Under the pieces are notes generated by a model, which worked only from the letters and a program-made list of their open reading frames with translations, was not told where the DNA came from and searched no databases. This document shows positions 5,243 to 62,545 of a DNA stretch of 64,000 nucleotides, piece by piece. Source of the stretch: Panaeolus papilionaceus (taxonomy: Eukaryota; Basidiomycota; Agaricomycetes; Agaricales); assembly GCA_015501605.1 (NCBI GenBank), contig JADNRZ010000033.1:276824-340823 (forward strand), written 5' to 3'. Each line of letters starts with the position of its first letter. Position 1 is the first letter of the stretch. The translations under genes and the position numbers were made by a program.

Positions 5243-5271
5243 TTGCAACTTCCCTACCTGTTATTACTCAA

Positions 5272-5411: not shown

Positions 5412-5539
5412 GCTCCTACCCAACCACAACCCAGACCAGCAGGCAATGTAAGGCTTTTTACGTAGAAAGAAGGTGTTTATTCACAATAAGAGCATATTTT
5501 AAGCCCAAATCTTAAACAATACCTGGTTTACAACGAATA

Positions 5540-16468: not shown

Positions 16469-16669
16469 GGACTAGCCTATGGATATCAACAGTAGATAGA
16501 GAAATAAAGGAGAAATAGAACTATCTAAAACTCACCGGGTGATCAAGCCGTGGTCGTCGATAGGGTCGATGTTTTTGGGGTTTGTTGTTTTCACAGAGAG
16601 AGAGAGAGAGAAAGAAAAAGATGTCGGTATCGGTGTAGTCGAGTTTTCTTGCGTATATGTAAAAAAATA

Positions 16670-40515: not shown

Positions 40516-40748
40516 TTACAAGCCTCCACAGTCCAATGGATGGATGATAATATCCCCGACCACTACAGGCCAAAGATGTAAGTATGATAAATTGCATTTT
40601 AATAAAGCAGCCTGTCCTCACAGTTAGAATTGACTTCTCTACGCTCGCCGCAAGGGTTGGATGCTGGCACTGGTGAAGAAACGACAAGAGATGGGAGCAA
40701 AGCAACAAGAAGCAACGAAAACTGAGCCAAGCGTTGAATAGTCTTCAT
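40516..40748 (-). CDS. Small secreted peptide precursor 1 (candidate RiPP precursor, 57 aa)
   Basis: Exon 1 is 40622-40748 and exon 2 is 40516-40562 (47 nt), with a 59-nt GT-AG intron in phase 1. Residues 1-25 form a signal peptide (MKTIQ, then a Leu-rich core). SSPVPASNPC follows, then the dibasic ERRE site. The spliced C-terminus after it ends DIIIHPLDCGGL. It is a member of the five-copy family in this window: signal, SP(I/V)P, one Cys, Arg-Arg, and a short exon ending in a Cys/Leu motif. A TATAAAAG box lies 77 nt upstream. Kex2-type cleavage after Arg-Arg would release a peptide of about 20 residues (inference). It could instead be a plain two-cysteine secreted effector or signal. Confidence 0.75.
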
Positions 40749-40824
40749 GGTCAAGTATTGCTGATAGTGTGTGGGCTAGTAGAATGAATAATAAGTTGGC
40801 GAGAGAAGAGCCAAGGACATCCTG

Positions 40825-40832
40825 CTTTTATA
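40825..40832 (-). promoter_or_regulatory. TATA box of peptide gene 1
   Basis: TATAAAAG on the minus strand, 77 nt before the ATG at 40748. The other intact family members also have a TATA box between 44 and 80 nt upstream. Confidence 0.55.
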
Positions 40833-42078
40833 CCTCATCTCGACTCAAGCCTTCTTCGTTCTAGCTATAGCCTGGGATCAGAAGCGTACCATGAGGAGAG
40901 CTCGATGCTTGAATCTGATTAAAAATGGAAATTGAGCACACCAATACGGAAATCCCTTCATATATGGGACTATCACTTATCAGTCTTGGTTAGGACAACA
41001 TAATCTATAATTCACCCTCCTCTCTAGCCTATACTTTCACGCTATCATCTACACTACTTCCTTCATGCTCGATAATACCAGTTCTCGTAACCCAAGCCTA
41101 GGACTCCAGTAACGCCTGTTCAGTTGATCGGAGCGCTAGTTGATGACAGCTCTTCAGCATTTGCTGAGGGATAACGGAATGAGGTTCTGAGTTCAAATTA
41201 TCTGACATGTGTCCATCATTCATCAAATTATATTTGGCGCGCGTGGATGCAATCGACCTGGTTTAGCTTTTATCATTGATACCATTGCGTCGGCTGATGC
41301 CCTCAAACTCGCACCTATCCACCTTCATCGTTTGAGTACACCGTAATGTAGCAATTTTGTGAACCGGAATTGTGGTATGCATTAACAATGCACACCTATA
41401 TATACGAAATGCTCTAAATTTAATAGATATCGACCATGCTCCTACTCTATAAATACGCTCAATTCAGTTAAGCCATTCGGGACTCGTTGATAGCACGCTC
41501 TCAAGCACATTCTCTTTCTCACGCCCAACTGAAGCACATATATCCTTCTCGGAAGGCAGCTGAAGTGGCACTAGAGCCGGGATTATGGATCAAGTACTCC
41601 GGATAAGACTCAACCGTTTTTCGACAGGCTTCTCCGCGTGAGATATGAGGAAAGGTGTCTTCGAGACAACTTAGTTTGTGAGAGTATGTGATCTAGTTTT
41701 TCGGGCGCTCCGAAATTGCCAAGTGCGTGAGGGGTGTATCAAACGGCTGTGTTTCAAGAATACATCCAAACTTCACATCTGAGTCTTGATAAAAGTGTGC
41801 CGAAGAGTCCAGGTTGATGGATAGTGGAGAAACTTGTGCCCTCTAGCCTCTTAATATTATCTCCAGTGTTTGAGACTTTAATTAGGCTCTAGTTTCAAGT
41901 TTCACTGTACCAAATCTACCACTTACATAAGTATTGAAGGGGGAAAAAGGACAAGGAAAAGGACAAGGCGCCTCAGATGTTGGATCACTCCGTGAGACAT
42001 TCGATTGGGCTAGATGCGTGATCCCATCATCAGCATCGGAATATGCCGAACTGCATCATCAACCAGGTCTATTCCAGC
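40833..42078. other. No gene recognised
   Basis: No family signature or protein-like open frame was found. A TATAAATACGC box at about 41450 resembles the promoters of the peptide family, but no matching ATG or signal peptide follows within 150 nt. Confidence 0.4.
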
Positions 42079-42080
42079 TA

Positions 42081-42586
42081 TCTCAGAAACGATAGACCGC
42101 TTTTCACAACGCTCCGCTTGGTGATTTTATTTACTTTTGGAGTGGTACAAACAAAACACCACAGCCCTAGCAGCATCAGATGAGCTCAATTTTCTTGGCC
42201 TCCCTGGTGGTAAAGCTGGTGCAGTCACTTGTCCACTCCTTCGTGCAAGTGCTTTGACCCATCGTATTGTTTGAGCACTGACATGAAGCATTTCGGAGAT
42301 CTGCATTGATTTCATGTATGCTGATGAAACAACGATATTTTCCTTTGTTTCGCGCGAGATATGAGAGTGGTTCCCATGATGGTTTGCATCAGGCAAGAGT
42401 AAATGAGCGGGAAAAATCGCAAGAAAATAATATTTGAATAACTATTTCTCTACAACTACATAGGAATGCAATAGGTCACAACACCGCGACTGGTGGGGTC
42501 TCTGTGGGTGTTGTGTTTATACCGCTCCAAAAGTAAATAAAATCACTAAGCGGAGTGTTGTGAAAAGCAGTCTATCGTTTCTGAGA
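42081..42586 (-). mobile_element. 506-bp Tc1/mariner-type deletion derivative with ~80-bp inverted ends
   Basis: Left end (from 42081, TCTCAGAAACGATAGACCGC) and right end (reverse complement from 42586) match over about 80 bp with a handful of differences. TA dinucleotides flank both ends (42079-42080 and 42587-42588), as expected for the Tc1/mariner superfamily. The interior keeps only the N-terminal DNA-binding part of a transposase on the minus strand. No DDE domain is present, so movement would need a transposase in trans. Confidence 0.8.
42127..42396 (-). pseudogene. Helix-turn-helix fragment of a Tc1/mariner-like transposase (89 aa)
   Basis: The 89 codons start MPDANHHGNHSHISRETKEN. 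They contain a helix-turn-helix (SAYMKSMQISEMLHVSAQTI) and end in PPGRPRKLSSSD, the usual linker before a second DNA-binding unit. The stop codon lies inside the left inverted repeat and the catalytic DDE part is missing. It could act as a DNA-binding repressor of the family if expressed, but is more likely a remnant. Confidence 0.65.
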
Positions 42587-42588
42587 TA

Positions 42589-43937
42589 GTTGTCAGGTCA
42601 GAGTGCATTTCGTCTCTGTTTCGAAGAAGTCGAGCAACATTAACATAGCTCCTGTTCTTGGTCCGCTGATTGCCCCAAATCGTGTCATGCGATCAAATCC
42701 ATCGTGCTTTTTCAATCTGGGTCAAGCTGTACTGAAAGTATCTGCGGGTCCAGCTATCGTTACCTTCCGTACACATTTCGTCTCCTATGACACCTCCTAA
42801 ACCGGATGTGTCACCGTAGGATGGATGTTTTTCATCAGTGTCATTGGTTCTGTGTAATAATTGTCAATTCTGCTAGGCCAGCTTTCCAGCATTCATCCTT
42901 CTGTCCGTTTTTCTCTCCTGAGTCTGGCGGCTGTCAAAGGAAAGCCGCCGTCAAATTTCAAGTGATTCTCGTTGATGTAATCTAAGAGAAGAAGCCCATA
43001 AAGCCCTCTATAACAATTTCAACATAGCACCACCCCAAAATCATTTAGGAATGACAGATACGGACGCTGGCCCGGGCCGCAAGGATGCGTGATGAAAACA
43101 ATGATTGCGCAGCAAAGCCAAATCTATCTATCATTGTGTGTGGGCATCGTTGATGTCTAAATTTAATCTCTGCGATTGGTAGTCACCCAATAGCGGCAGT
43201 TTGGTAGTTTCATGGAGGTTAGGAGGATCTCTGCGAGAGATTACGGCGTGGGATTAAACCTGATCAATGAGAGAATACTCACCGAAGATGCATGATCAAT
43301 TGATCTGTGACCTCAGGCAGTGGATTTATCACGCGCTATCCTTAATTACAATCAAAACTAGAGCCTCGTGGTACGTACTTACAAATCCCTATGCGAGATG
43401 ATGGAACTTTTTGTATTAGAGACGCGGTGAATTTCAATAAGCTTTCTTGCCAGCCTAGCGTTGAAAGGTCCCCATCAAATCTTGTCGTTTCTTTGCCAGT
43501 CATAAGTACCTCTTAACCCCTGCAGGGTTCGCTGGGAAGTCAAATCCGATGGCGAGAGTGAATTTCTGTCGTGTAATTACATTACTTACGATCGAGACTT
43601 TTAGGATCCCCAGCCAGTGAAATCAATGACATTCATCAGTTCGACTACTGCCGTTTATGTGTCAATGCGGTAGATACATCCTCAGTAAAGTAAGTGTTTC
43701 ATGACACTACATATAGGTCGTTCAAAGCGGAAGGTTAATTAAAAAGCAGCATATCTGCACGTTGGATCATTGAGGTTCGGTACTGGTCGAGCGTATACAT
43801 GTAACGATTTTCAAAGATATATCTGCTTTCAAGTTGGTGATGAGCACCGCACCTGTATCGCCCTAATTTCTCGGTTTTTCTCTTATTTTCCCTTTATTTC
43901 TATTCGCATCAGCGCATCGTGAACGCGCCGAGCTCTC
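42589..43937. other. No gene recognised
   Basis: Only short unconnected frames were seen, without domains or repeats that match the rest of the window. Confidence 0.4.
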
Positions 43938-44370
43938 TTGGTTTCCGAATATTTCGAACATTTTCTTTTGATTTCTATGATTTTCCATAGCTGTACATAC
44001 TTAATGTACGTAGTTTACAACCAATACAACTCTTTTCGCCCTCGTATTTCGTGTTTCGTCTTCGTTTTCATCTTCGTCCTCGTCCGGTGTCCGTGTACAG
44101 CTTCGTCAGCGCTTATTTCCGTCATTTTCGTCGTCTTCGTCCTCCGTCTTCGTCTCATTTTACCTCACACTCACCTCACCTTCCCATCTTTTCATTTCTC
44201 TCACATATCGACCCCACGAACTCGTACCGCGCGTCTCACCTTCCTTTTCCATCCACCTATCTCATCCCCCAGTCACACCTTCACGACCACTCACCTTTTC
44301 ACTCAGATCTCCCCACGCGCACATCATTGGCGAACTGGACGAGTATCTAATCAACTGAACAAAGTATGAT
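43938..44370 (+). repeat. Dispersed repeat family R1, copy 3
   Basis: From about 44010 this aligns with 5540-5860: GTTTACAACCAATACAA, a CGTTTTC/CGTCCTCGTC tract, CACATATCGACCCCACGAAC and then CACTCACCTTTTCACTC. Open frames here are shadows of the pyrimidine-rich sequence. Confidence 0.5.
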
Positions 44371-45323
44371 CTTTATCAAAGCCGTCTCATTATCCAGATC
44401 ATCTCACCCTATAGCTACTTGTAAATAGCACGAGTTCCAGGGTAAGACGGCAGATGGATATCTGGTTAACTTACCTCGCCTTGTCAATTGGCGTTTTGAG
44501 AGCGTTACTCGTACCAATGAGACGCTCTCCTGAGCTTCGGCCTCCTTTGCCTCGAGACATTCAACTTCTGCGGAGCGTAAGCTTTATCATACTCACCTAT
44601 TTCTACATCTGGTTCACGCCATGACTTGAGACCTGGTTTGGTAGAGTTCTAGGCGCAACATATGCGCATGTGTATCAGCCACATGCATCAGATTTCTAAT
44701 ATGTAGTTGTTCATGGGCTTTGAGCGGTGGAAAAATAAGATATGGGTGAATATGGACATCCCTTCACTTGTACTACAGTTCGTTGCAGAATAAAAATAGG
44801 CTAATCATCCACATGGCTGTTTTAAGACACCAAGTTAAACATCGACGCCCGGAATCGAGAGTTTCGCAGGTGCTTCCGTAATGAATGAAGCAGTGTTTAG
44901 CCCCGCTATCTTACGAAGAACTCGTCTACAGCAACATGAAGGCCTAGCGCCTGGCAATTGTTGGTCGTCTAATTCGAATTCACAAATAACAAATTCAACT
45001 TGTAAGGCATGTCGACTAAGTCTAAATTTATTAGACATCCTGTCAGAAGATGAACCGAGTAAAATGTTATGGGAGGGTGGGACAGGCTCAAGGGAGTTAT
45101 GAGTCCAATTCCTTCTCAGGCAGTCGGACTCAATGTGCATATACTACGCTGTTTATGCGGGCGTTTCTGACATATGACTGATGCCCCGGTACAGCTACTA
45201 GACCTGGTCAGCCTCGTGCTTAATTCATGGGTTTTGCAATCCAATTTGAGATTTTGTAGTTCTCATGGCGAAGTCCAGATATTGCAGCAGCTGTCGTCCG
45301 TAAGAGCGGAGGCATTTAGCCTG
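44371..45323. other. No supported gene
   Basis: A 101-codon minus-strand frame at 44835-45140 has no known signature. No splice partners were found. Confidence 0.35.
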
Positions 45324-45331
45324 ATATAAAA
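45324..45331 (+). promoter_or_regulatory. TATA box of peptide gene 2
   Basis: ATATAAAA, 78 nt upstream of the ATG at 45410. Confidence 0.5.
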
Positions 45332-45409
45332 CATGACCCGGCGGGGTTCATGTTCGCTCAGAACCAATAATTTCTGTTGGACACCTTATACTTTCGGTAC
45401 AACGAAACC

Positions 45410-45650
45410 ATGAAAATCACTTATCACTCCTCGAATATTCATTGTGTTATCACCATTCTCTTCTTTTCATTACTTGCAACTTCTTCGCCGATACCTGCTC
45501 CTTTAGTATGTGGTAGCGAAAACAATCGCAGAAGTATTCCAGGTACGATTATCATATATTTGGTTGTTGACTTTTTTATCTGACTCCACATCGTGATTCA
45601 TAGCGCACGACATTGTAATCGACCCGTTAGGCTGCTTCGGGGGGTTATGA
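45410..45650 (+). CDS. Small secreted peptide precursor 2 (candidate RiPP precursor, 59 aa)
   Basis: Exon 1 is 45410-45542, exon 2 is 45604-45650 (47 nt), intron 61 nt, phase 1. The ATG was chosen over an upstream in-frame non-ATG codon because it matches the other family members. A hydrophobic signal peptide covers about residues 10-25. SSPIPAPLVCG follows, then a NNRR dibasic site. The spliced C-terminus is AHDIVIDPLGCFGGL. Its last seven residues are the same as those of precursor 3 and the preceding ones are very similar, while the leaders differ more, so the C-terminal part is the conserved one. It is probably secreted and cut after Arg-Arg (inference). Confidence 0.75.
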
Positions 45651-46345
45651 ACCCTGAGCATATGATGGAAATGCTCAAAAAAGTGCCCAAGTCACACGAA
45701 AACTTCGGGCTCTGGGTGCAAGGAATGTAGAACGAGGATTGTCACTGATGGGAATGGTATAGACAGACGGAGCGCAGCGGGATGCATACCCTGTCTTTCA
45801 GGAATTGTGGGCAAAAGTAGTTTTATTTATTTTAGTCCTTCTGTTAACCTTTCGTTTGATAACCAATTGCTCACGTACTTTATTCAGTTGTCTCAACTTC
45901 GTGATCATCTTCCCTCTTGATTGTCTTGAAGCAAATACACTGACTGAGGGCATCAATTTCTCATGAACTAAGGATTAAAGAGTCCCTGTCTTACCAGTTC
46001 AAATGGCCAAAATATTGGACACGTCGCAGTCTGGTTATTTACAGTATAACATCGGCTAAACACTTAATTTATCCGACGTCGTTTCGGACGATGAATGAAC
46101 CGAGCCAAAAATAAAAATGGAAGATTAGACCGGACTTGTGAGTTAGGTTCCCTCCCACATTAGCCTTTTATCCCAAGCAGTGGTCAATGCACGAAGCATA
46201 TGCTCCTGTAAGGCCCTTGGCTGTCTCGTCCTTAGCCCTTGCAATTGAATTCATGGTTCGAAAATTCCCATCCTATGCTCCTGATATTGTTCTAAAGTTG
46301 TCTTCGTTGAGAACCTAGCTATTTGGTCCCTGGAATTGGTCCAGG

Positions 46346-46353
46346 TATATAAG
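46346..46353 (+). promoter_or_regulatory. TATA box of peptide gene 3
   Basis: TATATAAG, 43 nt upstream of the ATG at 46397. Confidence 0.5.
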
Positions 46354-46396
46354 TCGTTTTCGACAGGGCTCTGAGACCCACCTAGTAAGCACAACA

Positions 46397-46629
46397 ATGA
46401 AAACAATCCAGCATTTCTCAAACATTTGCCTCATTGCTCTTCTTCTCCTTGTGTCAGTCGCGATTGCTTCACCTATACCTGTTCCTCAATGTGGCACAGA
46501 CAACAGGCGCCGGGCATCCAAAGGTGATGATCAGGTTGTTTTGCTGTTACATCTTTGATCTGACTTTTGATTGCGTTTATAGCTCACAACATCACTATTG
46601 ATCCTTTGAGTTGCTTCGGAGGGCTATGA
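46397..46629 (+). CDS. Small secreted peptide precursor 3 (candidate RiPP precursor, 57 aa)
   Basis: Exon 1 is 46397-46523, exon 2 is 46583-46629 (47 nt), intron 59 nt, phase 1. It starts MKTIQHFSN with a Leu-rich signal core to about residue 24. ASPIPVPQCG and the tribasic NRRR site follow, and the spliced C-terminus is AHNITIDPLSCFGGL. It lies 0.75 kb from precursor 2 on the same strand, a tandem pair. The pseudogene at 58873 is a duplicate of this gene including its intron. The two cysteines, one on each side of the dibasic site, could pair or be modified. Confidence 0.78.
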
Positions 46630-46779
46630 GCCCGAGGGATGACGAAGATGTTTAGTAAAGTGAGAGACCGCACAACGCCTTCGGGCTACAGATGCAAGTT
46701 ATATGGAACGAGAGTCATGACTAATGAGACTTTTGTAAACAGCCTTTTATTCACCTCTCCACTCCATCCATTCATGATT

Positions 46780-47250
46780 CATCATCGCTATTATTGTCTG
46801 CATTTGCTATCGCATCTACACATCTACGTTTGTATGCCTGTATCTGCACCCTAGTGTTTTCCTTACACCTGTACCATCCACACACCGTACACCTACATAC
46901 CCTTGCATTATTATTATCATTGTTGCAGGAACCTGAGAACCTAAAACGGCGGTGACTGGATACATAATTCAGCGACGGTGGCACTGCAAAGCTGGCAGAG
47001 AAGACGAAATGGGATGAACCTAATCTCAGACGCGGAATCTGGGCGCTGGCATAAAACGGTGATGCATTTCGAACAGATAGCTGCCGATGGTGTACATAAA
47101 CTAAGAAGTGAGCTCTATACAAAAATAAGCAAGCGAGATAAAACGACAAGAAATAAATGGCAAAGCGAGCAGAAGGACATGAGAAGACGGAAATGAAGAT
47201 ACAGTTCCGAAAGGTCAAAAGATGCTGTCGGCGTCTAAGTATGTACAAAT
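46780..47250. repeat. Degenerate repeat, possibly R1-related
   Basis: An ACGGCGGTGACTGGATACA block with a GCGACGGTGG block (46954-46981) resembles the block at 6152-6190 of family R1. The overlapping open frames on both strands are weak and not supported as genes. Confidence 0.3.
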
Positions 47251-47505
47251 GTTGACACTTCGGATAGTCGACTCTGATACTTACATAGCACTCGAGGAAC
47301 CATTATTTCTACGACTATCCCTTTTCCTTTGTAAATAATGGTGTTCATCCGAGTTTACGTTTATCTAACACTCCTTGTATTTGTTGTTATAATAAAATCA
47401 CCTTATCTCCTGTGAACCTTAGACATTTGCACATTCATTAAAGTTCGCGATCTGACACAAGTCTCACCAGCACCACTTCGTCCTTCCTCCATCCAGAGAG
47501 TTCGA

Positions 47506-48437
47506 ATGCCACCCATCCCATATAAACACCCTCACCTCGACGGTAACCCAACACACAGCGCAAGCATGAGCGAACCCACCGGAACCCCCATCGACGAGTC
47601 GCAGCACTGCTCCGACCTCGATTATCAACGCAACGTTGTTCCTCATGAACCAGACCTGCATTATATCGGACCTGGAAATGACAAACAACTCCCTCCACTC
47701 GCACGTCGCTTGAGTGTGGTGAAAGGGCTGTGTGACCTCGCCATAGCATTTTCGTTGATGTTTGTCCCTGGACTTTTGTATAATGGCCCGTTTATGGAGG
47801 CGTTGAGTGATTTGACGACGTTGGTGAGTTGTCGGACGTTTTTCTCCTTTTACTTTCCTTGTTTCTTTTGCGTCTGGGTCTCAGTCATTTGAATTAAATT
47901 GAATACGTCTTTGGATATAGCCGACGACGAGCGGGACAACGAATCCGTCGTCTGCGATTGAGATCGCAACGCTCCTACTAGGGATGGGAGTAGCTGAGGT
48001 TGTGTCGGGTGAGGAGAGGTCAAGGGGAGCAATCAAAACAGTTGGTAAGCACAAAATTGCGTTGCTCTTTAATTATCTTATGCATTCTCATCGGTATGCT
48101 ACATATAACACATCTTCTTCAATGCACACCCCACTCGCCTCCACTAGCCACAATGACAGGAATTACGTCCTTGACAGGTCTATCCATCTGCATTTTATCA
48201 CCATACAAACACGCTACGACCTTCATTTTGTTTTTGGCACTAATGAACGCGGCGTGGTATGCCGTTGTTGTGAGGGCTGGGCGGTTGGGTGTGGCAGAGA
48301 CATTGCGATTGGGAAGGGGGTTGAGGACGATGTGCAAGTGTGGGAGGGGCATAATGGGGGTAAGGGGCGAGACGAGTGGAATGCAAGGGTATACTGCTGT
48401 ACAGTGTGGGGAAGGAGTTGGCGAGAAGACAGGCTGA
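47506..48437 (+). CDS. Predicted multi-pass membrane protein of unknown function (~243 aa)
   Basis: Three exons fit with consistent phases: 47506-47823 (phase 0), 47921-48044 (phase 1) and 48148-48437. The protein starts with a hydrophilic stretch of about 75 residues. Hydrophobic segments follow: GLCDLAIAFSLMFVPGLLYN, a Gly/Ala/Ile-rich one in exon 2 (EIATLLLGMGVAEVV), and ILSPYKHATTFILFLALMNA with AAWYAVVV in exon 3, suggesting four membrane passes. The last 30 or so codons look low in quality, so a further intron or a different end is possible. I do not recognise the family. It lies head-on after the two peptide genes, but nothing ties it to them. Confidence 0.6.
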
Positions 48438-48744
48438 GGGGTAGGAGAGGGTGTTGCGGAGTTCGCGAGTAGATTTTGCAATTGGAATCCGTTGCGTGTT
48501 CGAAATATCGAATTTCTCGTTCTTAATACAATTTGTAATCATTATAAATTTATTTAATCCTTTTTGATGGTCTTACGGAAAAAATCTACTTTTTATCTCG
48601 TTCGTCAAGAGGAGGATATTGAAAATGCTAACGCCCCTGTCTCCAAAGTCGTAGCCAAGCAAGACCAAATTGATGAAGTCAGCCAAATTTTGAAGAGATG
48701 ATCCAAGTTCAGCACGTCGACCAGCTCAAACTATTAATTGTACA

Positions 48745-51226
48745 ATGCCTCCATCCCTACCCTCTCTACCAGCAACAAAAAAGCATAAACTTGCCAAAGA
48801 AGCGGATTTTGCTCAAAACCTCAAATCACTAGAGGAAACACTCACACAAGTTGTGTCAAGAAATGGGTCGTTGAACCTACTTGCCGATCTCTTGTCTGTG
48901 ATGGAAGGGACACAGGATGCGCATGAGACGTCTAAAGCTATTTATGCGCTTTATCGGGTCTTTGTGGTTGTCACATATCGTCAGTCTGACTACGGGAGAC
49001 TAGTGGAAAGTTGGGACTGGGTGGAGATGAGGCTGCAAAGGTGGTCAAGGCGTGGATATGGGAGAGATTACAGACATATACGGATTTTCTGGGTGGGCTG
49101 CTGAAGGATGAGGAGAAGTTTTTGCGGGTGCGTGGTTCCGCGGTTTTCTAATGTACTGATGAAATTTACACCGTGGTTATTAGACGTCTGCATTGCAGAT
49201 TATGTTCTCGTGCTTGAGCTCTCGACCTCATATTCTAAATCTGCTAATGCTTCAAAACCGCAACCTCAATTCCATGTGTCACATTTCAGGAAAATCGTCT
49301 CTTCACTGCTACTTTGTCCACCGTCACAGAGAAAGTCCTCGAAAAAAGTGAATGATGGACGAATTGACCCAGACGTGCTGGATCTGTTTTACGAGACGTG
49401 GTTCAGTGTGCATGACAATATCAGATGGTTCTTCCTTAGAGAATCTGCGTATGTTCTCTCCATTTATACCTGCATTCACTCTCTGATTAGCGGCGAATCC
49501 TCTACAGAACTCGCTTATCCAACCACTCGCACAAATCATATCCTTACCTCGCCACAAACCTCCTCTCACTCCTCGAACGCCTCACCACATTCCCCACTGA
49601 ACCTGAAGAACTCAACTCATGGTGGGTCACCGAATTCGCCACCAAACCTCCAAAACCCAAAAAGTCGAAATCCAACGATGATGACGAAAACGAAAACGAC
49701 TCTGAGAATGAAAATGCGGAGCCTTCTGGTGACGGGGACGACGATTGGCGGAAATTCTTCGAAGAGGAGAAGACGCCAGAGGGTGCAAAAGGTCCTTCCA
49801 TGCGCTTACACCGCATGTCAACACACCAGTCTCTATACTCTCTCAACTCGCACAAGGCCGTATTTACTCGGACTTGGCTGATGCTCCTACCCCGCCTCTC
49901 TGTAGGTGCTGATGAGGAGACGCGGAAAGCGCTCGCGACGAGGGCATTGAACGTCATGCATCGTGGTGTGCTCCCACATTTGACGAGGCCGTTTTTGGTG
50001 ATGGATTGGATTGGTTCGTGTGTGGATATGGGTGGGTCTGTGGGGCTGTTGGCATTGAATGCTTTGTTTGTGATGATTAAGGAGTACAATCTGTGAGTTT
50101 TCTCTTCTTTGTTGGTCAGCGCTGCTGTTGGCGTTGATGGCTGGCTAAGTTGACTGACTAATATTTGAACAGCGATTACCCGTCATTTTATACCCGCTTG
50201 TACGCGTTTTTGGATCGCGACGTGCTGCATTTGAAGCATCGGTTGCGATTCTTCCGTCTTACAGAATTGTTCCTGAGCTCGACGTACATCCCTTTTTCTT
50301 CTTCAATCTGCTCTCATTGACCCAAATAAACGCTTTCATTCATCTTTGCTCGCCTAAACAATCATTGCTTTCAATAGTCACCTTCCCGCCGCCCTCCTCG
50401 CTTCATTCATCAAGCGCCTCTCTCGACTCTCACTCTCCGCGCCTCCTGCTGCAGTTGTAATGATCATTCCATTTACGTACAACATCCTCAAACGGCACCC
50501 AGCGTTGATGTAGATGATCCATAGGGTAGACGTCGACGGGGGTAACGGTGCATTTTTTTTCTTGTATCTTGTTTGTTGTACTGTTTTCTAATCAAATCCC
50601 CTGTCTTCACGCACTCAACTCGATGTCTCCCCCCGCCTGGCTTCGGTTCTCCTTCCCTTCACAGATCCATTCCTCGACACCGAACCCGACCCAATGAACG
50701 CCCAAGCAATCGACAGCTCCCTCTGGGAGCTCCTCTCTCATTCGACGCATTATCATGCGCCCGTGTCGACGATGACCAAGATCTTCTCAGAGGCATTTAC
50801 GAAGCCGAATTATTCGATGGAGGATTTTTTGGATCATACATATAATACAGTGAGTTCAGGAGTCTTTTTTTTGTCATGTCTGCGTGTTTCGTTTTGCGGT
50901 GACTGAATGACATGATTGTGCTGTAGCTTTTCGACACGGAGATTAATCGCAAGATTAAGAAAGAACCTGCACTCGCAATGATTGATGATGTTAAGAAGAT
51001 GGATATTTTCCCAAGTGGTGGAGGCATTGTGAAGATTGATGCAGAGGGCCACGACGAGGGGAGTGGTGACGAGAACAGTGGTGATGCTGGGAGTGAGGAG
51101 GAGAGCGGTGACGAGGGTGAAGGTGCGGATGCGGATGAAGGGAAGGAGAAGAAGATGGGAACGAAGATGGATGTGGATGTGCCGATGAGGCATAGAGATA
51201 TCGTTGCTGAGCTCTTGGGATTCTAG
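48745..51226 (+). pseudogene. NOC4: NOC4-like ribosome biogenesis gene with broken frames
   Basis: NOC4 (CBF/Mak21 family) helps assemble and export the 40S subunit. The family order is clear: SRNGSLNLLADLLSVMEGTQ, GLLKDEEKFLR, HFRKIVSSLLL, DIRWFFLRES, NLLSLLERLTTFPTEPEELN, an acidic insert, FTRTWLMLLPRLS, AVVMIIPFTYNILKRHPALM, DSSLWELLSHSTHYHAPVS, MEDFLDHTYNTLFDTEINRK and an acidic tail. Supported intron junctions are 50093-50172, 50284-50377, 50542-50664 and 50850-50926; one is also likely at 49450-49508. Three breaks were seen: a frame change near 48985-49010 with no normal-sized intron, a one-base loss near 49205-49215 between TSALQIMF and LSTSYSKS, and an in-frame TAG at 50511-50513 between ALM and MIHRVD, inside the conserved core. 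Since NOC4 is normally essential, a working copy should exist elsewhere, or these are sequence errors. Confidence 0.72.
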
Positions 51227-51680
51227 TTTAGTTGGATGTGTAGGATTGGGTTTTATGAACGAACCAATGAATATCTATCGAATCTGAACTTGAATTTGGA
51301 TGGATTGTCGAGCTAGTCCCTCAAACCTGGGATGTAGCGCTCAGCACCAATTATCCAAAGAAGTCTGCACTTACGATCCGAATCCATCGATATGGCTCTG
51401 CGAATATTGCTTTTGCAGCATGGACAGAACCAGGATGAAGAGAAATGACTGATGATAAATTTGAAACGATTCAACGCTAAACAACACGGGAGGAAAACAT
51501 GGTATGTATGAATGTATGTAATAAATCCAAACGAGTAAGAGTCCGAGGGAAAGAGAAGCATAAACGACGAAGGTGAATCATACAAACATGGAGGGGTAAA
51601 ATCGAAAACGAGGCCTAATTTGGATGGTAGATAGCTAAGTAAAAACACGGAATCCGTCGCCAAACAGAATAAGTTGACGC

Positions 51681-52040
51681 TCAAGCCTTTTTTCCGAACG
51701 GTTCTTTGACAATCCACTTGGCTTGTGCCAAACACCCCTTGACAGACAAATCTTGATAGTCGAAGATGACCCGCTCGTAACCTTCAGGAGGGCTCCTAAA
51801 TTTGATGAGCACTAGAGCCGACTCTGCGAAAGTGTCCTTGGCTTTGGCTAGCCGGGTCTTGAGAATGGATTTGCGTTGCTTAACATCGTCGGATTGACTG
51901 TTAAGTTGTTTCAAGGCGTCTTGAAATATTTGGATGATCCCTGTAGCTCGTTGATGTCGTCGAGTTGGTGTTGATAGAAGAGCTGTGCTCGCAGTTTGGC
52001 AAACTTGGCGGGTGGAGGGCTGAAATGTTCCAGTTGCCAT
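51681..52040 (-). CDS. Unrecognised 119-aa ORF
   Basis: A single open frame starting MATGTFQPSTRQVCQTAST. It contains a probable helical region (IFQDALKQLNSQSDDVKQRK), then FRSPPEGYERVIFDYQDLS and a short basic end. No family was recognised. It could be a small gene or one exon of a larger minus-strand gene with the frames at 52280-53505. Confidence 0.4.
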   Translation of the reverse strand: MATGTFQPSTRQVCQTASTALLSTPTRRHQRATGIIQIFQDALKQLNSQSDDVKQRKSILKTRLAKAKDTFAESALVLIKFRSPPEGYERVIFDYQDLSVKGCLAQAKWIVKEPFGKKA

Positions 52041-52279
52041 CGTATTTTTACCCTATTCTCGTTAAGATGACGAATGCTTGAATCGATGCCCCGTTCGAGT
52101 TCTGTCGAAGATGTCAGGGTGACGAACGTTCGGAGTGGGTCCAGACAGTGCGACCGATCTTCTTATTGGTGGCTCTTTATCAGCTTGACAAAATTTCCAA
52201 AAACAACAGGTTTGACTTTGAGATGCAAGTCAGGCCAACACGAGCCAAAAACCAGAGGGCAAGTTATCAAAACTAGAAT

Positions 52280-53505
52280 TCAAAAGAGTAGAGAGGACGT
52301 CATACAGTCAGCATCATCAACATCAAATCCGCATAGTCCTCTCAGTCTATGTTCGATTTGAGCGCTGAGTTCCACATCATCCTCCTGTGTATCCTGCATA
52401 GGCCCAGTGAGTAGATGGTGAGATATGTCCTTGCTGATCTTCAAAGTTATTTTGATTAAATCTTGGACGCATGCCGTGGGTGTCAGACCTACTTTTGGTT
52501 CTTTCATTCCGCTGATAAGCAAACCGTCGAATCCTCAGGTCTCAGGCCTCAGTACACTAAATTTAATGTACCACATGAAGTGATTCGAGAGCATGACTGT
52601 AGCAATAAGACGCTATCGGCAAGTAGGTGTTTCTATATAGATTAGCTGAAAGATGACGGTGCTCTTTGCACGCGCAACTAAAAGCAAGTGCACGACTGAA
52701 TGTCATATTTTCGTACTTCTTCGTCCATTCTAAGAATTTCGCGAGTGTCTCCGATACCAAATATATGCGCAGTTTCCAATGTAGGCTACTAGCACTTGGG
52801 AATTTATTGAGCAAGGAACGAGCACGCCGTGAATATGAGTGTCTCGCTCGCATTACGATTCCAAAGAAGCCGCGGTGAGAATGAACTTGATAAGGCTGCC
52901 TGTGGACCTGTTGCTCTCTTGGAAGCAACAGAGAGCCCCGCGACATGTCATTCAACTTGAAGAATTTCCGTCTTAAAACGTAGTCGCGAAGGTCAGGTAC
53001 AAAATGGATGCCTTGAGACCCGATCTTGGGGTCGTCTTGAGGTGTGAGGGTGTGTATGTTCATAGAATTGAACATTCCGCTCTCGACGGACACTCTGATC
53101 TGACCCAAGGACACACTGAATGGAGGGCCATGAGAAGCCATGGCAGAATTGTCCAATTCCTTGGGATATGCGGCACCAGAGCAATAGTCACAGTGAAATG
53201 TTAACCGTCGGGGTAATATTGATCTTGGAACTTGTTGTGCGTATCCAGCGACACTCCCTTGATGAAGAACTTGCCATGAGGAGGATAGGAACCTCGAACT
53301 CGACCCTCACCTGAAGTCTGGTGTGAGAAACCCTATAAAGAAATACAATGGGAAGAAGTTCAGTGCTAAATTTATGCGGTCTTAAATAGACGCTCTGAGA
53401 ATTAGTAGAAGGGATAAGCACAGGATCTAATGCCTCGGTTCGCTTCTCGCTTCCGACCGCCCCTGATCTTTCGAAATCACAAAGTAGGTTATTCAGTGAT
53501 TGCAC
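52280..53505 (-). other. Possible multi-exon gene, unresolved
   Basis: Three minus-strand open stretches read protein-like: 53188-53505, 52563-53156 (with GSQGIHFVPDLRDYVLRRKF) and 52280-52522 (with LKISKDISHHLLTGPMQDTQ). I could not join them with convincing splice sites, and no domain was recognised. This is either one decayed gene or exons of an unknown one. Confidence 0.3.
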
Positions 53506-53895
53506 CTACTAATTTTGGATCCCTGAGTTTCCGAAGCTACTCACACCTTCGTGTTCGTTGTCCATGTAGTTAGGTACAACAGTTTAATCTCAGCTGAAGG
53601 GCTTCCAAGAAGTATTACTTGGAATCAACAAAACTTTTGCCTTGGAACCCGAGTGGGGTATATCAGGACTGGGAATACAGACGAACGCACACTGCGGACA
53701 AAAGGCTATCGCCTAGCCTGGGAAGAATAGTAATCTTCTTTTCAATCTTCTCTGAATCTTCCAGCCAAGAAGATTCATGAAAATCGCCTTTCATCCCAAT
53801 CTGCTCAGTACAAAACTGCATGGATAATGTTTGTATTATGGCTGTACAAAGCATAATTAGCTATAGTGGGCACTACCACCGACGCCGCGGTAAAA

Positions 53896-54560
53896 TTACA
53901 GGTGTCCGAGCTTCTGTGGTCTCACCCATGCCCATGTCTTCACTCTCTGTGCCACAATATCGTACAACTTCTCCCAATCGCGACACACCCTAGTATCCCC
54001 ACCTGATCTTAAATCACAGTTCTTGTACCTCTTCATGAAGTCCCCTTCCTCGAGCGTATAATCCGCATCGCACATGAGTGTTTGACGCAGATAATGTAGG
54101 CAGTGACCGACGTGATGGTAGTCTGCCATCCCGTAGTGCCGGTCTTGTAATGCCTCTTCCATGATTTGAACGCAGTGGAGCTGATGGAAGTAGACTGCGT
54201 TAAAAAGACGATGTGTCTCTCCAAGGTGAATTCGCCCTGAGCCATGCGGCCACGAAATGAGCGTCATCCATTCTTTCTCGCTGTAGTCGGTCAGGTTGAG
54301 TTGGTAGTGAGTTGAGTCTTGTACCGTCATTGCGACGGGCTCCAACGGCTCATCCACAACAAGTTCGAGTGGATAATCTGTGTATTCAAGAGCTAACAAG
54401 GTGATAGATCCTGTAAGCTGAGTCAGACATGGATAATTTGGAGCTTACTGTGCTCATGCTTGCGAAGAACAATGTTTACGGAAACCAACGTCAGAGAGAT
54501 GTTGATGAGGAGCAATAGAGCCCAAGGCCATACTGATGGGCCCGTTTGATGCTTCGACAT
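53896..54560 (-). CDS. UstYa-like (DUF3328) protein (208 aa)
   Basis: Exon 1 is 54449-54560 and exon 2 is 53896-54410. The 38-nt intron is unusually short but has GTAAGC, a CTGAC branch site and TTACAG; phase 1. An N-terminal membrane anchor (about residues 10-32, ALLLLINISLTLVSVNIVL) precedes a lumenal domain. Both family motifs are present: HQLHC at 113-117 and HVGHC at 137-141, followed by LRQTLMCDAD. Proteins with two HxxHC motifs of this kind act in fungal RiPP pathways (ustiloxin, asperipin, phomopsin, cyclochlorotine), where they carry out oxidative modification or cyclisation of peptide side chains. No break was seen. It lies between the peptide genes at 45-46 kb and 57 kb, which suggests a shared pathway. 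UstYa homologues also occur in other fungal clusters, so the link is inference. Confidence 0.88.
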
Positions 54561-55311
54561 AACTATGGGTCGTGTCGAGTCAATGGGGTGTTCGAAGCTC
54601 CCTTATCTCCATCCTTCGTGATCTTGCACACAGCTATTCTAGGTCTACTAGTTTCGGTTCCCATGAACCTGTGCATATCACTCACCCATGTCCCTGTCAC
54701 CCACGCCTTCATTAGACGATTTGATCCACGTGAGGCTCACGGATAATACGAGGATAAAAAATAGGCGACTTTTATTTTCCACGTCGAGAGCAAAAGCTGC
54801 CGGTGTTATTTAACTCTCATAAGATCCACAAAACGGATTTTGATGATTATAGGTATAATTATTTCGAAGAAGTCGAGAGTGTGGTCGAGATCATGTTAAG
54901 TGAAGGGCCAGTCTTCTCACATTATAAACCAAATCTAAGTAGCAGCATACGAATTACCCCTAAGTTATCGCTTCACCTACATACTCGTCCCGCCATATGA
55001 TGACCATTCGCCATGTCCTTATCGCCTTAACATTCTCGTTTTTATTTTGATAGTGGGCCCCTCGTTCGTCGCAGATAATCCATTTGCATGGAGAAAGAGC
55101 ACGCCTACGGGTGGTAAGCCGTTCCTTGTGCCATGTAACTGAAAACGCCAAATATCATGAGTAGCTATGCAATTGTACGAATCGCTGAAGACAATTGACC
55201 GTGTATCAATGATTATCAATGGATGTGTATGACACCGTCACGTGGATGATACAACACTACGTCGCCTACCTCCTCGTCTCTCCTTCTTACCCTATTCCTT
55301 TATCCTCATTC
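54561..55311. other. No gene recognised
   Basis: This includes the upstream region of the UstYa-like gene. A clear TATA box for it was not seen. Short frames on both strands lack any signature. Confidence 0.4.
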
Positions 55312-55600
55312 GCTACGCGACACGCGCTCAATCGTGGCGTAGCTGATTTTCTTTCTCTATTGACCACCCACAACATCCTCCTTTTCATTGAATAACCCCC
55401 TGACATCATGTAGATTTCCCAAACATCTAATACATTCTACCTTCATTTTCGGAATCCTGCTCCTGAACACGCTGGAGACCTCGTAGTAGGGAGTAGTGAG
55501 AGACCCGAGACCGGCGGAGGGCTCGTCTGTCCACCGTCCTCAGCTCTCGCACTGGGAGTGGTCGCTCACAACAGCCCACTCCCACTCCCCCTACTACTCC
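55312..55600 (+). repeat. Putative structured-RNA element, copy C
   Basis: An upstream hairpin (GCTACGC 55312-55318 with GCGTAGC 55337-55343, GCGCTCA in the loop region as in copy B) precedes a predicted three-way junction. The outer stem is GTAGTAGGG/CCCTACTAC (55483-55491 with 55589-55597). Stem 1 is GAGAG/CTCTC with an inner pairing near GGCGG/CCACC, and stem 2 is GGGAGTGG/CCACTCCC. The outer and second stems pair perfectly although their bases differ from copy B, which points to selection on structure. Downstream, CCCC-GACTA-CGGGG and CTCTC/GAGAG hairpins follow. Confidence 0.45.
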
Positions 55601-57167
55601 ATCCCCCGACTACGGGGCCTCTCTCGCGAAGAACCAAGAGAGAAGACCGAATACATACAGGGAAGTTGTGTACGAAATGATCCCAAGGTGCGAATCTGCC
55701 ACTCGATTTCTCTGGTCTGGGTGCAGCCAATTTCAATCGAGAAAGTGTGAACTTACCTATGATTGTCTATAGATATAGAGGATACGTATTATATGTAATC
55801 CTATCATGTGATTACAACGCTCTTATATGCGCTCGCGCGCATATCTTCCTTTCCTTAGTCTTATCATCGTCGCTACCATTTGTATTCATTACTCGCCGTG
55901 TTCACGCGTTTACAGAATATAGCGATTGCCTGTTCATTTCTCTGTGCAATCGCTTCAGTGTTTCCTGCGTTGCCTGCAGGTTTCCATTATAGTGTCAATG
56001 AACGATGACATCTTGCCTGTGCCTGCTGTTGCCGTTAATCTCTATCCGCTCTCCGTCGCTGATTTAGGAACAAAGCTCACTTAAGCCTGCTAAAAATATA
56101 TAATGACTCTTGGATTCCTCGATTAGTGCTCTGACAGTTAATAACCGTCGGATTTGACAAGGGAGACATGCCGTGCATCAGCCTGCACAGCCTGGCTGGG
56201 AATCTAGTACAGCAGTTGTCGTTGGTCACCCACGATCTCCGTAACGGCTTTTGATCAAGTGGTATATATATCACTTCGTTTGGGTGGAGGGGGCAGATCG
56301 GAAGGGTTAGGAGACAATATCGGTTATGGTGCGAGCGTTCCGACGGGCTGCCCTATCCGCTTTGGGTGAACTAGACTCTTGGTCGCCGCGCTCCCACGAC
56401 GCCTCGTCTTGTTCCGACTGCTCGCCCTGTATCACGATGGGGTCCTTCTTTCTTAACTCGTTAATTAGGAGTCGACGTAGACTACAAAGGGTTTCATTTA
56501 AATTAACGAGGACGTGAGCGTCATGTGAGCGTACGCACTACCAACAGGCTTGAGCGTACTACTGGGCGCCTTTTTCTTGCTTGAGGATCAATGAATGCAC
56601 TTTAAAATTTGGGTACACTGATTGCAATCTTCTACTTGTAAGGGCGGGATCTAAACATTCAAGTTATTTCTACTCAAAATCCTCTCTATTTAGGAAATGC
56701 GATGTTACCGAGTTTTGAAGTTGACGGCTTTGACAATGATACTTCATCAGCAGGTGTATTTGGATTGGTGCCTGCCACATGCAACATTAAATTTGGTCAA
56801 GCCAGAAAATTTTTCGTGGATGGCTTCTGATAACACGATCGAGGTCTCTTCAGTCGGATCTAGTCAGTGCTGGGCAAGTCTGAGCTCAGCAGGTCTTGCA
56901 TACTCATGCCAGCCCCTGTCCTGCGTCCAGGACCATGCAGACTGTCAACGTTTCGCCTAGGTCTGTACTCTGTAAAACGATGCCAATCTTTTTTTGTTAC
57001 CACTTCCCTGGGCTGCAATTTAAGGACATCCAAAAAATGGTTATCGCTCTCACACACATCCTTTTAGTCCGACTTGTGACTAGTTGGAAATGAAAAAGCT
57101 TGGCGGGCGTGTATTCACTTCGAATGGCTTCATGCCTATACAACAAGGGAAACGACTCGAACCAAGG
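55601..57167. other. No gene recognised
   Basis: Only short frames are present, with nothing matching known families. The right end leads into the promoter of peptide gene 4. Confidence 0.4.
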
Positions 57168-57176
57168 TATATAAAG
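57168..57176 (+). promoter_or_regulatory. TATA box of peptide gene 4
   Basis: TATATAAAG, 77 nt upstream of the ATG at 57254. Confidence 0.55.
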
Positions 57177-57253
57177 GACCTCAGTGCGCACCCTTAGTCC
57201 CCAGCGTCGCATTAGACTCTACTCTCCCCGGGAATCAGTACTTGCACCGCACC

Positions 57254-57509
57254 ATGAGGTATAATTTATTCATCCCTCAGCTATTCCTTACCTTCATTGT
57301 GCTCTTTCCCTCGCTGGCATCACCTTCACCCATCCCTGAGGGTGATGACTGTCCTGACATGAGCCAAGACAGGCGCCGAGGACTCGAGGGTAAGGTTACA
57401 TGCTTATTATCATCACGTCAGTTTACTGATGAACTTTGCCGAAACGGCATATGCAGTCATTGATCTTATCGTCAATCCAGCAATTTCGGGGTGTATGGCA
57501 CCTCTCTGA
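57254..57509 (+). CDS. Small secreted peptide precursor 4, divergent (62 aa)
   Basis: Exon 1 is 57254-57389, exon 2 is 57457-57509 (53 nt), intron 67 nt with a GTAAGG donor, phase 1 as in the others. The signal peptide covers about residues 1-23. SPSPIPEGDDC and the tribasic DRRR site follow. The spliced C-terminus is VIDLIVNPAISGCMAPL, which keeps the Ile-x-Ile/Val, Asn/Asp-Pro, Cys and terminal Leu of the other members with two extra residues before the Cys. The architecture makes it a family member, but it is diverged enough to give a different product. It lies 2.7 kb upstream of the UstYa-like gene's start, in divergent orientation. Confidence 0.65.
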
Positions 57510-58524
57510 AAGGCCCATTCTACGCGACGTGAGTATTTGTGTGTTATCGGGACCTGGAGTCTCATAGTACTTAAGTCATAGAAAATATTTCCGGCATACG
57601 ATTCAGAATTTATGCCAGCGCCTGTGTTGTAGAATGTATTAACATAAGCAAATGACAGTCCCTGTGAAATGAAGGTAGTTGGATTTCTCATTTGTGTATA
57701 AGCCACATTTATCCTGTCGGAGCCCATCATTCTCTTTCAGTAGGCAGTACGATATCTTAGCGTTAATCAACTTATCAACCTGGGCGCCCATTAAAGGGCG
57801 TACGCGTATTGCGGTGTTCCCAGGAAAATCTGCGAAGTATGCCCTGTTACAGTTCACGCTGATGTTGGCTCATTCTCACTACTCTAATACAGATACGCAC
57901 ATCTCCTGAGTCTTCTTCAAAGCTAGAACTTGTATTTATGTTTCATGAGTGAAGGATAATGGTTCGAGCTGATATCCCAATTACATATCAAGTTCGGTTT
58001 AATAACCCCCTCAAAAAATCAAAGAAGGTGCCTGTGGTTGAACCAAAGATTCTCATCTGCTGGTTTGCTGGCTTGTAAGTTGTATAGGATCGCTCTCAAA
58101 AGGCGGAGCAGCCGCGGTGGAAGAAGGGCAAGTAAGATAACAATACTGGAGCAACAGAAATGGTTGAGCTTCATTGTGTATAGGGTGCAAAGGGAGGTCG
58201 ATCAGGCGCATTCAATAGGAAGTTGGGAGGATTTAGGGGTTGTCATGATTCTCCAAATTACGACTGCATTGAGTGAGAAAAACCATGAGTGGTTGCAGCG
58301 CAGTCTCACCCTAAGAAGTTCACAAACTCAGTATTATGTATCCATGCGCAGCTCAATCCGAGGCTTCTCTCCTTATTTAGCGTTCAGTTTCGATTACACC
58401 TTACTTCAGTACTAAGCCTATTCTTGCTATCTTTCAATGAGGCCACTCGGACAATATGGATCTTTTTACCTATTTTAATTATTGGCAGACAAGTTCCTTT
58501 CCCTGGACTTTTGTCCCACGCGGT
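57510..58524. other. No gene recognised
   Basis: Open frames here (for example 58038-58415) have no signature and no good splice partners. Confidence 0.4.
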
Positions 58525-58802
58525 CTACGGTGTTCCGTAGATGCAAGGTCAACTCGACATTTCGCTTTGGCTCCCGAACTTTGTTGGTTCCTCGTCGGCT
58601 CCCATGCTGCCTCATGCTATCCTTAATCATCATGTCGATAAATGCATGTTCTACACTAGTACCAGAATCCATATGATGATGATTAAGGATAGGGGTGTGA
58701 GAGAGAGGCACATGATGCAGCATGGGAGCCGACGAGGAACCAACAAAGTTCGGGAGCCAAAGCGAAATGTCGAGTTGACCTGGCGTCTACGGAACACCGT
58801 AG
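58525..58802. mobile_element. 278-bp MITE with ~110-bp inverted arms
   Basis: The arms start CTACGGTGTTCCGTAGA on both ends and stay nearly identical through GTCAACTCGACATTTCGCTT and GGTTCCTCGTCGGCTCCCAT. CGGT occurs directly outside both ends (58521-58524 and 58803-58806) and is probably a 4-bp target duplication. It has no coding capacity. The first 16 bases are themselves a short hairpin (CTACGG/CCGTAG). A half relic lies at 5272-5411. Confidence 0.85.
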
Positions 58803-58872
58803 CGGTCACGGACAATGCACGATTAAACTTGGCTCTGAGACCATCCAAGTCCGTCTTCTAGTCAGCGCAACG

Positions 58873-59045
58873 ATGAAAACGATCTAGCACTTCTCAAATA
58901 TTTGCCTCATTGCTCTTCTTCTCCTTGCATCAGTCGCCCTTTCTTTAGCCATACCCGTTCCTCAATCATGTGATACCGACCACGGGCATCGAGCATGCTG
59001 CATAGGTGATAATCAAGTGGTGAATTTAGCTGTTACATCTCCGAT
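58873..59045 (+). pseudogene. Peptide precursor 5, pseudogene
   Basis: This aligns closely with precursor 3 from its leader into the intron, but codon 5 is TAG (58885-58887) where precursor 3 has Gln. The signal core LIALLLLASVAL and IPVPQSC remain. The dibasic site is changed to Gly-His/His-Arg, and the second exon is not recognisable before the 41-bp minisatellite that starts at 59150. The upstream promoter region is interrupted 70 bp before the ATG by the MITE ending at 58802, and no good TATA box remains. Confidence 0.75.
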
Positions 59046-59149
59046 CTGACATTTGATTATGGTGCGCCTTCTGCACATTTATTACCTATGACCCAATGTT
59101 TGATGTATCAGTATGCAGGCACTATCTACACCCTATCGTAGCGCTGGGG

Positions 59150-59490
59150 GTGGCACAACCTTCGAAGTTGTGCCTAATTTCCCGAACATTTGTGGCACAA
59201 CCTTCGAAGGTTGCGCCTAATACCTCGAACATTTGTGGCACAACTTCGAAGTTGCGCCTAATCTCTCGAACATTTGTGGCACAACTTCGAAGTTGCGCCT
59301 AATCTCTCGAAAAATCGTGGCACAACTTCGAGGTTGCGCCTAATTCCGCAAAGATTTGTGGCACAACTTCGAGGTTGCGCCTAATCCCTCGAAAAATCGT
59401 GGCACAACTTCGAGGTTGCGCCTAATTTCTCGAACATTTGTGGCACAACTTCGAAGTTGCGCCTAATTTCGCAAAGATTTGTGGCACAAC
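59150..59490. repeat. Minisatellite of ~41-bp units, 8 full copies plus one partial
   Basis: Each unit begins GTGGCACAAC, carries the perfect 14-bp palindrome CAACTTCGAAGTTG or a near variant, then GCGCCTAATyyCTCGAACATTT. The units start at about 59150, 59192, 59237, 59278, 59319, 59360, 59400 and 59441, with a partial ninth at 59481. Small differences among units (AACATTT, AAAAATC, AAAGATTT) alternate, so higher-order duplication is possible. Confidence 0.9.
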
Positions 59491-60219
59491 CTGTCAGGAT
59501 TGACACAAGTACGCTACCACTCTCGACGGTTACCCCTCAATGTAGCAAAGCGGGTCCTATTCTACAAAAGCTTGAACTAATAAGAAGTGTTAATAAACAT
59601 TGCCATGAAGGGCGTGCCGACTGAGTTTTAAACCGGCAACGCGGCATCACGGCCATATCGGCAGGCCTGATGCGATCATGAATTCAATTCTGATGAGATT
59701 ACGGAGGACTGATGCCGCTTCAACTGCCGGGAGATTGCACATCAGCAAATTCAATCCGCTGCTACTACTCAAATCAACAAGCAGATTACAAATGAATGAG
59801 TTATATTGTAGCGACAAAGCACAGAGGAGGGACCAATGAGTAACAAAGGACAAACTCGGCAGACCGAAAGGGGGTGGATGTCGGGTCAGGGTCACAGAAT
59901 TAAGAGAGGAAGTGGTAATTACTAAGCGTGAGGTGCATGGTCGGTGGAGATAGTAGAAAGCAGGGGAAAGGGTGAACAGATTGGGATTGATGAGAGAGAG
60001 GATAGATTATATGGTAATTATGTTAAAAGATAAGGAGTGTGAAGAGGGACGGTGATGGAGGGAAGGAAAAGATCGGGAATTGAGATATTATCGGAGAGAG
60101 CACTATGGCAAGTCTATCATAACGGTAGGGTACTATACGAGGAAGTAATGTAGAAAAGGTGGATTGGAACAGGAGTAAGTATGTCAACTAACCTCGAAAA
60201 CACGCAGAAATGATCTAAT
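59491..60219. other. No gene recognised
   Basis: An 82-codon minus-strand frame at 59647-59895 has no signature. The stretch from 59940 to 60110 is purine-rich. Confidence 0.4.
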
Positions 60220-61642: not shown

Positions 61643-62007
61643 TGCAAAGAGAGGGGAGGGGATGGAGAGAACGAGGGCAAAGATGAGAGAATGAGGGCAA
61701 GGATGAGGGAACGAGGGAAAGGATGAGAGAACGAGGGTGAGGATGAGAGAACGTTTGAAAGAGTGGATGAACACCCAAGGGCAAAGGGCGATAACAAAAG
61801 CTGTTTCCATATGCCACTTTTATACTACAGAAGGTAATCTACTTGGCTAAGATCTCAGACGTCTGTAAAACACACAGGGCTTGTGTCCAAAGTACCGCCC
61901 GTGGTAACCATACATGACTTGGAAGATGAATAAATTTGGTACGCTGAGCTTGTCCAATGGGCAACTCCTCAACTTCGGGATAGACCCCGTCTTCCCATTC
62001 CTCTTGG
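61643..62007. other. Upstream region of the four-exon gene, no other gene seen
   Basis: A 20-bp tandem-like repeat (GATGAGAGAACGAGGG variants) spans about 61660-61760 and produces long false frames. A TATAAAAGTGGCATATG stretch on the minus strand at about 61807-61823 may be the promoter of the gene ending at 60220. Confidence 0.4.
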
Positions 62008-62463: not shown

Positions 62464-62545
62464 TCCTCTGTTCTGCTTCTTCTGTTCAGCTGCATTATAG
62501 ACTCTGTGCTTTCTCCCTCTCCTCTCTTCTCCCTGTCTGGCAACC

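Follow-up and report, generated by a model that had tools for sequence, protein, structure and literature searches.

Within a 64,000-nucleotide stretch of the Panaeolus papilionaceus genome that runs up to the end of contig C27 (C27:276824-340823; hereafter, the window), we find a family of small two-exon genes encoding precursor-like proteins and, in their neighbourhood, a gene for a UstYa-like protein. The small genes are paralogous, have the same structure and are under purifying selection, and in this genome no linkage of the family to UstYa genes was found outside the window. On balance, we think it fairly probable that they constitute an orphan family of secreted precursors from which Kex2 cuts a single core, the conserved C-terminal peptide being the active part, and that the UstYa-like protein acts elsewhere. 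The original prediction for this DNA had proposed a ribosomally synthesized and post-translationally modified peptide (RiPP) system, in which the UstYa-like protein modifies the core.

A family of small, constrained precursor genes

The positions claimed for four small genes, a pseudogene and the UstYa-like gene were borne out. On the reverse strand, precursor gene A (40516..40748; exon 1 40748-40622, intron 59 nt, exon 2 40562-40516) ends, after an Arg-Arg pair (RR), in EVNSNLVGDIIIHPLDCGGL. The other three intact window genes lie on the forward strand: gene B (45410..45650; exon 1 45410-45542, intron 61 nt, exon 2 45604-45650) continues after RR with SIPAHDIVIDPLGCFGGL, gene C (46397..46629; exon 1 46397-46523, intron 59 nt, exon 2 46583-46629) with (R)ASKAHNITIDPLSCFGGL, and gene D, the most divergent (57254..57509; exon 1 57254-57389, intron 67 nt, exon 2 57457-57509), with (R)GLEVIDLIVNPAISGCMAPL. 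All four introns are of the GT..AG type, in phase 1 and 59-67 nt long, and splicing yields precursors of 57-62 amino acids (A 57, B 59, C 57, D 62). A fifth intact member, gene E, is encoded on the reverse strand of another contig (C14:88158-87925; MRTFSHFSQLCIVLIAMFPSLVLSSPVPSPDSCNNRRADSEVAHDLIIDPLLCNGGL), with a phase-1 intron of 60 nt.

The precursors start with a signal-like segment, followed by SP(I/V)P, a Cys, RR, the phase-1 intron and a C-terminal peptide, in which the second Cys lies; the stretch that begins with SP(I/V)P and runs to the C-terminus is 33-38 residues long. Signal peptides were called from hydrophobic-stretch scans (A, B, C and E in one, C and D in another) and by eye, not with SignalP. 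The peptide after RR comprises 18-21 amino acids and is mostly encoded on its own exon, the last, of 47-53 bases. Each of the five intact members has one such core, which agrees with the initial description of a single core mostly in an exon of its own. Its pattern is roughly [DN][IL]x[IV][DHN]P[LA] followed by one or three residues, the Cys, two or three further residues and a Leu, and in most members the tail resembles IDPLxCxGGL. Gene A ends in C-G-G-L; in the other members the Cys sits one residue further in.

The previously described Arg-Arg, SP(I/V)P and spliced C-terminal peptide thus all recur, whereas the single Cys per precursor needed correction: exactly two follow the signal part in each of the five intact members, one on each side of RR, and both Cys columns are invariant in the alignment. 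RR stands 2 to 6 residues after the first Cys in 5/5 members and is conserved while adjacent residues and spacing vary. Since the linkers are of unequal length, the RR pairs fall in different columns of the automatic alignment; by linker shuffling, the probability of finding RR in all five is 0.0028. A dibasic site ahead of the core in every intact member, combined with the signal-like start, predicts secreted precursors of the Kex2 type. Gene structures, shuffles and the fivefold presence of RR together support the earlier view that these tiny precursors of a secreted type form a family and share a conserved, Kex2-type dibasic site.

That the precursors are real, constrained genes follows from leave-one-out shuffles, codon differences and the placement of an upstream TATAWA motif. 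In leave-one-out profiles, each intact member scored above 500/500 shuffles of its own post-signal part, with 27.6 bits for D, against a shuffle maximum of 17.8, and 50.4 to 73.2 bits for the other four. Summed over the 10 pairs, a block of nine codons in the C-terminal exon showed 56 differences per 61 synonymous sites (pS 0.92) and 40 per 209 nonsynonymous sites (pN 0.19), the latter lowered by the fact that these nine codons were picked as the alignable part and include the invariant Cys and Leu. The signal region with SPxP gave pS 0.65 and pN 0.43. The C-terminal exon, hence, shows the strongest purifying selection (pN 0.19 versus 0.43). For B, C and E, the complete final 15 codons carried 9-12 synonymous differences per 10.5 sites and 4-7 nonsynonymous ones per 34.5 sites. 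TATAWA precedes the ATG in 5/5 members, at -84 (A), -85 (B), -86 (D), -87 (E) and -51 (C); as background, it occurs within -120..-50 of 99 of the 2454 window ATGs (4.0%), a range that C's motif falls just outside. No shared promoter word of 7-9 bases was common to at least four of the five members.

Members elsewhere in the genome

Exon-1 and spliced precursor proteins were searched against the whole genome (71 contigs, 50,854,751 bases); the search scores best candidates only, and more divergent family members may exist. Besides gene E, it led to a decayed, frame-broken member near 10.8 kb of C57 that retains RR and has lost the GGL end. A match on C4 looked by eye like a hydrophobin-like gene and was taken as chance. 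DNA searches of the genome with genes E, A and D gave self-matches only.

The pseudogene already recognised at 58873 comprises exon 1 and the start of the intron (58873..59058, forward strand), and we can now add that its exon 1 carries an in-frame TAG, that RR is lost and that its intron is interrupted. The interruption is one terminus of an inverted-repeat element containing a minisatellite (59060..59490, forward strand). In a DNA search, gene C matched the missing exon 2 on C49 (~2090-2140), where it survives as a remnant carrying an in-frame stop; by eye, an inverted copy of the 59060..59490 sequence sits before it. With the inverted other end of the element and the missing exon 2 both near the C49 start, C49 may continue C27 across this element, which has inverted ends and minisatellite units of roughly 40 bases (window 59060-64000; C49:1501-2090, L050).

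A pyrimidine-rich segment of about 490 bases (43838-44326) lies about 1 kb from gene B. It recurs with 74% identity about 1.1 kb from the C14 member (L032:9278-9770), in the opposite relative orientation, and partly at window 5520-5851, and is probably a dispersed repeat.

The UstYa-like gene and its surroundings

The gene at 53896..54560 (reverse strand) encodes an intact UstYa-like protein with two HxxHC motifs (HQLHC and HVGHC), as originally described, and a match to DUF3328 (PF11807; E 2.9e-15, 57.2 bits against a 25-bit cut-off) confirms its identity. The protein is 82% identical to P0001, encoded on C50. Over 144 codons, the two genes gave pS 0.72 and pN 0.07 (dN 0.075; dS about 2.4, near saturation), and the window gene is, therefore, strongly constrained relative to its C50 counterpart. 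On C50 (C50:39674-41381), two UstYa genes form a divergent pair, the second with HxxHC motifs that look altered by eye (HQMRC and IIRHC). The window holds a remnant of such a divergent partner (about 55000..55211, forward strand), absent from the original prediction. Its frame is broken and its HxxHC part unmatched, and two stops inside the match fall where the C50 gene seems to carry its intron. Given the C50 pair and the window remnant, the window gene has another UstYa gene as its partner and is not evidently paired with a precursor gene. TATAWA was not seen by eye in the 130 bases upstream of the UstYa start. From 43.9 kb to the window end there are 33 open frames with a length of 110 or more amino acids; a Pfam scan of 28 of them, limited by introns, placed only UstYa above the cut-off.

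Are UstYa genes linked to the precursors? From 13 exon matches we read at least 11 UstYa genes in the genome (four on C2, three on C12, two on C50 and one each on C70 and C27; these numbers are lower bounds), which we counted as seven places. Family members were found near one of the seven, namely in the window, and linkage within this genome is, thus, not consistent. The genome search returned no UstYa match on C14, C57 or C49, and the stretches of 40-60 kb inspected around the UstYa genes on C2, C12, C50 and C70 yielded no family member. A motif scan of five fetched loci (40 kb of C2, 40 kb of C70, 60 kb of C12, 40 kb of C50 and 20 kb of C14) returned an exon-2 match on C14 only, and only there were exon-1 matches judged real by eye; dropped by eye as chance were six exon-1-type matches in these loci, and three exon-1-type and two exon-2-type matches in the window. 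When the same loci and the window were scanned for a hydrophobic start, PxP and a dibasic site, genes E, A, B and C were the only ones listed. A looser scan, covering 8 kb around the UstYa places, yielded C and D in the window and two open frames on C12, one of which carries a UstYa gene, the other not being precursor-like by eye. This looser scan is non-exhaustive, as A and B were out of its range and E, a known member within range, was missed. A repeat scan found no repeat-type precursor in the window or the fetched regions.

In the related Panaeolus cyanescens, protein P0004 (CVT24_012589) has UstYa sequence at its start and ends in VKHILRLPLILLAAIRALALPTPKPTAAVAVPDAFEFDRRIDPTVYDIMADDSSVRTVA. 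This tail comprises a signal-like start, PTPKP, DRR and a short single peptide with YDI, so that P0004 looks like a gene model run into a neighbouring secreted precursor gene. Scored against the precursor family, the tail scored 8.3 bits, a value reached by 11/500 shuffles, and is not significantly related. No match to it was found in the P. papilionaceus genome, in a search that is an uncontrolled negative, and a protein database search returned two candidates, none at E <= 1. The arrangement hints that Panaeolus may have single-core precursors next to UstYa, and it makes P0004 a candidate single-core dikaritin-like system.

Other features of the window

The reverse strand at 8437-16471 holds retroelement remains, with long open frames carrying a Tf2-1-like SH3 domain, an integrase zinc-binding domain and an aspartyl protease, and also a zinc knuckle below its cut-off. 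A near-perfect inverted repeat of 1.16 kb (99.3%) connects 2698-3856 and 4103-5262, and a second pair of segments, 24824-27294 and 33668-36242, forms a direct duplication of about 2.5 kb that has diverged (76-81%).

Discussion

How might these precursors work? Judging from their predicted proteins, the signal peptide would direct the precursor into the endoplasmic reticulum (ER), where the two invariant cysteines on either side of the dibasic site may pair in a disulfide. In the late Golgi, Kex2 or a similar protease would then cut after RR and free the 18-21-residue C-terminal peptide, either alone or disulfide-joined to a short N-terminal piece. This peptide, the conserved portion, would carry the activity, probably in signalling or defence. 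The family would have expanded partly through local duplication. The UstYa gene of the window, in turn, would be what survives of a divergent UstYa pair and would work elsewhere. In line with this, C14 and C57 carry family members and no UstYa match, and C2, C12, C50 and C70 carry UstYa genes with no members found. Absence of RR from the 58873 pseudogene likewise counts in favour of this model.

Several observations weigh against this model of an orphan family. RR loss is not always tied to decay, as the decayed C57 copy keeps it. P0004 joins UstYa sequence to a tail resembling a secreted, single-core RR precursor. Moreover, a random 18.5-kb stretch of this genome would hold a UstYa place with a probability of just 0.0018-0.0026, a post hoc value for one fixed stretch, to be read knowing that many other enzyme families could have seemed notable. 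The same chance of about 0.2-0.3% speaks for a dikaritin-like RiPP, in which the peptide after RR would be a core that is cross-linked or hydroxylated by the UstYa-like copper oxidase, given that an intact and constrained UstYa gene sits within the 18.5-kb cluster. Cores of dikaritins generally have an aromatic residue, mostly Tyr, as their cross-linking site; none of the five cores here contains Tyr or Trp, and Phe is present in two of them. Together with the linkage at one of seven places, the lack of a UstYa match on C14, C57 and C49, and a C50 counterpart that pairs with a second UstYa gene with no such precursor found there (the window partner being a remnant), this leaves modification of the core by the UstYa-like protein, as first proposed, unsupported. 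The coupling of UstYa sequence with a DRR/YDI tail in P. cyanescens keeps the general RiPP idea alive; that tail, however, is neither significantly family-like nor matched in this genome. For the enzyme class as such, the abstract of PMC12435403 implicates DUF3328 proteins in modifying inert C-H bonds and describes CctR as a copper enzyme. A dikaritin-type RiPP is, then, possible but not supported, and we deem it quite improbable; the idea depends on a single gene nearby, and other evidence links that gene to something else. The UstYa-like gene is probably a neighbour with no functional tie to the precursors. More generally, a RiPP enzyme adjoining a peptide gene need not act on the peptide.

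The layout of two cysteines around RR permits other readings. The precursors might be nicked by Kex2 between their paired cysteines and secreted as disulfide-linked chains, a two-chain signal or defence molecule; we regard this as a tentative option, and its boldest form would have the local copper oxidase modify the peptide afterwards. Alternatively, they could be small secreted proteins that are never cut, with one internal disulfide and RR as part of their surface. Two invariant cysteines in 5/5 members and 33-38 residues from SP(I/V)P onward, enough for one loop, would suit such a protein, but conservation of RR amid varying neighbours and spacing is what a cut site would show, and the sequence before RR looks much less conserved in the alignment, which makes an uncut protein unlikely in our view. 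Prenylated, pheromone-like peptides are suggested by the CaaX form of gene A's C-G-G-L end, with the Cys one residue further in elsewhere. The four-residue form, however, fits one member of five, and all five have a signal-like N-terminus, as opposed to basidiomycete mating pheromones, which according to excerpts of PMC9769878 are cytoplasmic products that undergo prenylation and leave the cell through ABC transporters. We therefore rejected this idea as highly improbable. Of these readings, we continue to favour the orphan family of secreted, single-core precursors.

The family appears to be undescribed and unannotated. A protein database search with the five-member alignment gave 313 candidates, none at E <= 0.1, in agreement with the initial claim of an undescribed family, although with proteins this short the result says little about absence from other species. 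Nor did the five precursors match a Pfam family (0 at E <= 1) or the alignment a PDB entry (0 at E <= 10), and among viral contigs, gene C gave 211 pattern stretches and no relative. Across 5.39 million papers, a text search with six peptide strings found one unrelated paper only, and literature searches turned up no comparable single-core family. Two-exon genes this tiny, with a last exon of 47-53 bases, are easily overlooked by annotation, and single-core precursors are invisible to repeat-based surveys of fungal peptides. If the family is expressed, single-core secreted peptides would represent an overlooked layer of mushroom peptide biology.

Insulin- and relaxin-type two-chain peptides, in which a dibasic cut falls between disulfide-held chains, possibly share their layout with the precursors, which are far smaller and have one possible disulfide; no sequence relation is claimed. 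With the dikaritin RiPPs ustiloxin, phomopsin and asperipin-2a, precursors A-E share the secreted Kex2-type design and a UstYa-like gene in the neighbourhood, but they differ in their single core, the lack of Tyr and the absence of consistent UstYa linkage in this genome, and no other tailoring gene was recognised near them among the frames scanned. In Pleurotus ostreatus, 16 UstYa-like genes, 6 of them developmentally expressed, are considered by the authors to be probably involved in dikaritin production (passages in PMC8893723). Kex2-processed repeat proteins (KEPs), common in Agaricomycetes (excerpts of PMC7329392 and PMC9769878), resemble A-E in their signal peptide, dibasic cut site and short peptides. 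As defined in the same excerpts of PMC7329392, however, KEPs have at least three tandem repeats, each of at least 8 residues, between cut sites, whereas A-E have one C-terminal core and no repeat. DUF3328 genes are stated there to adjoin 103 of 1680 basidiomycete KEPs (6.1%), versus 30.1% in Ascomycota, and Y and I to be conserved in YXIX cores. The likeness in core number is with a Coprinopsis cinerea glycoside-hydrolase protein, for which passages in PMC9769878 describe a single, non-repeated, Kex2-flanked agaric peptide that was detected in the fungus; there the peptide precedes a glycoside hydrolase, whereas in A-E it forms the end of a 57-62-residue protein.

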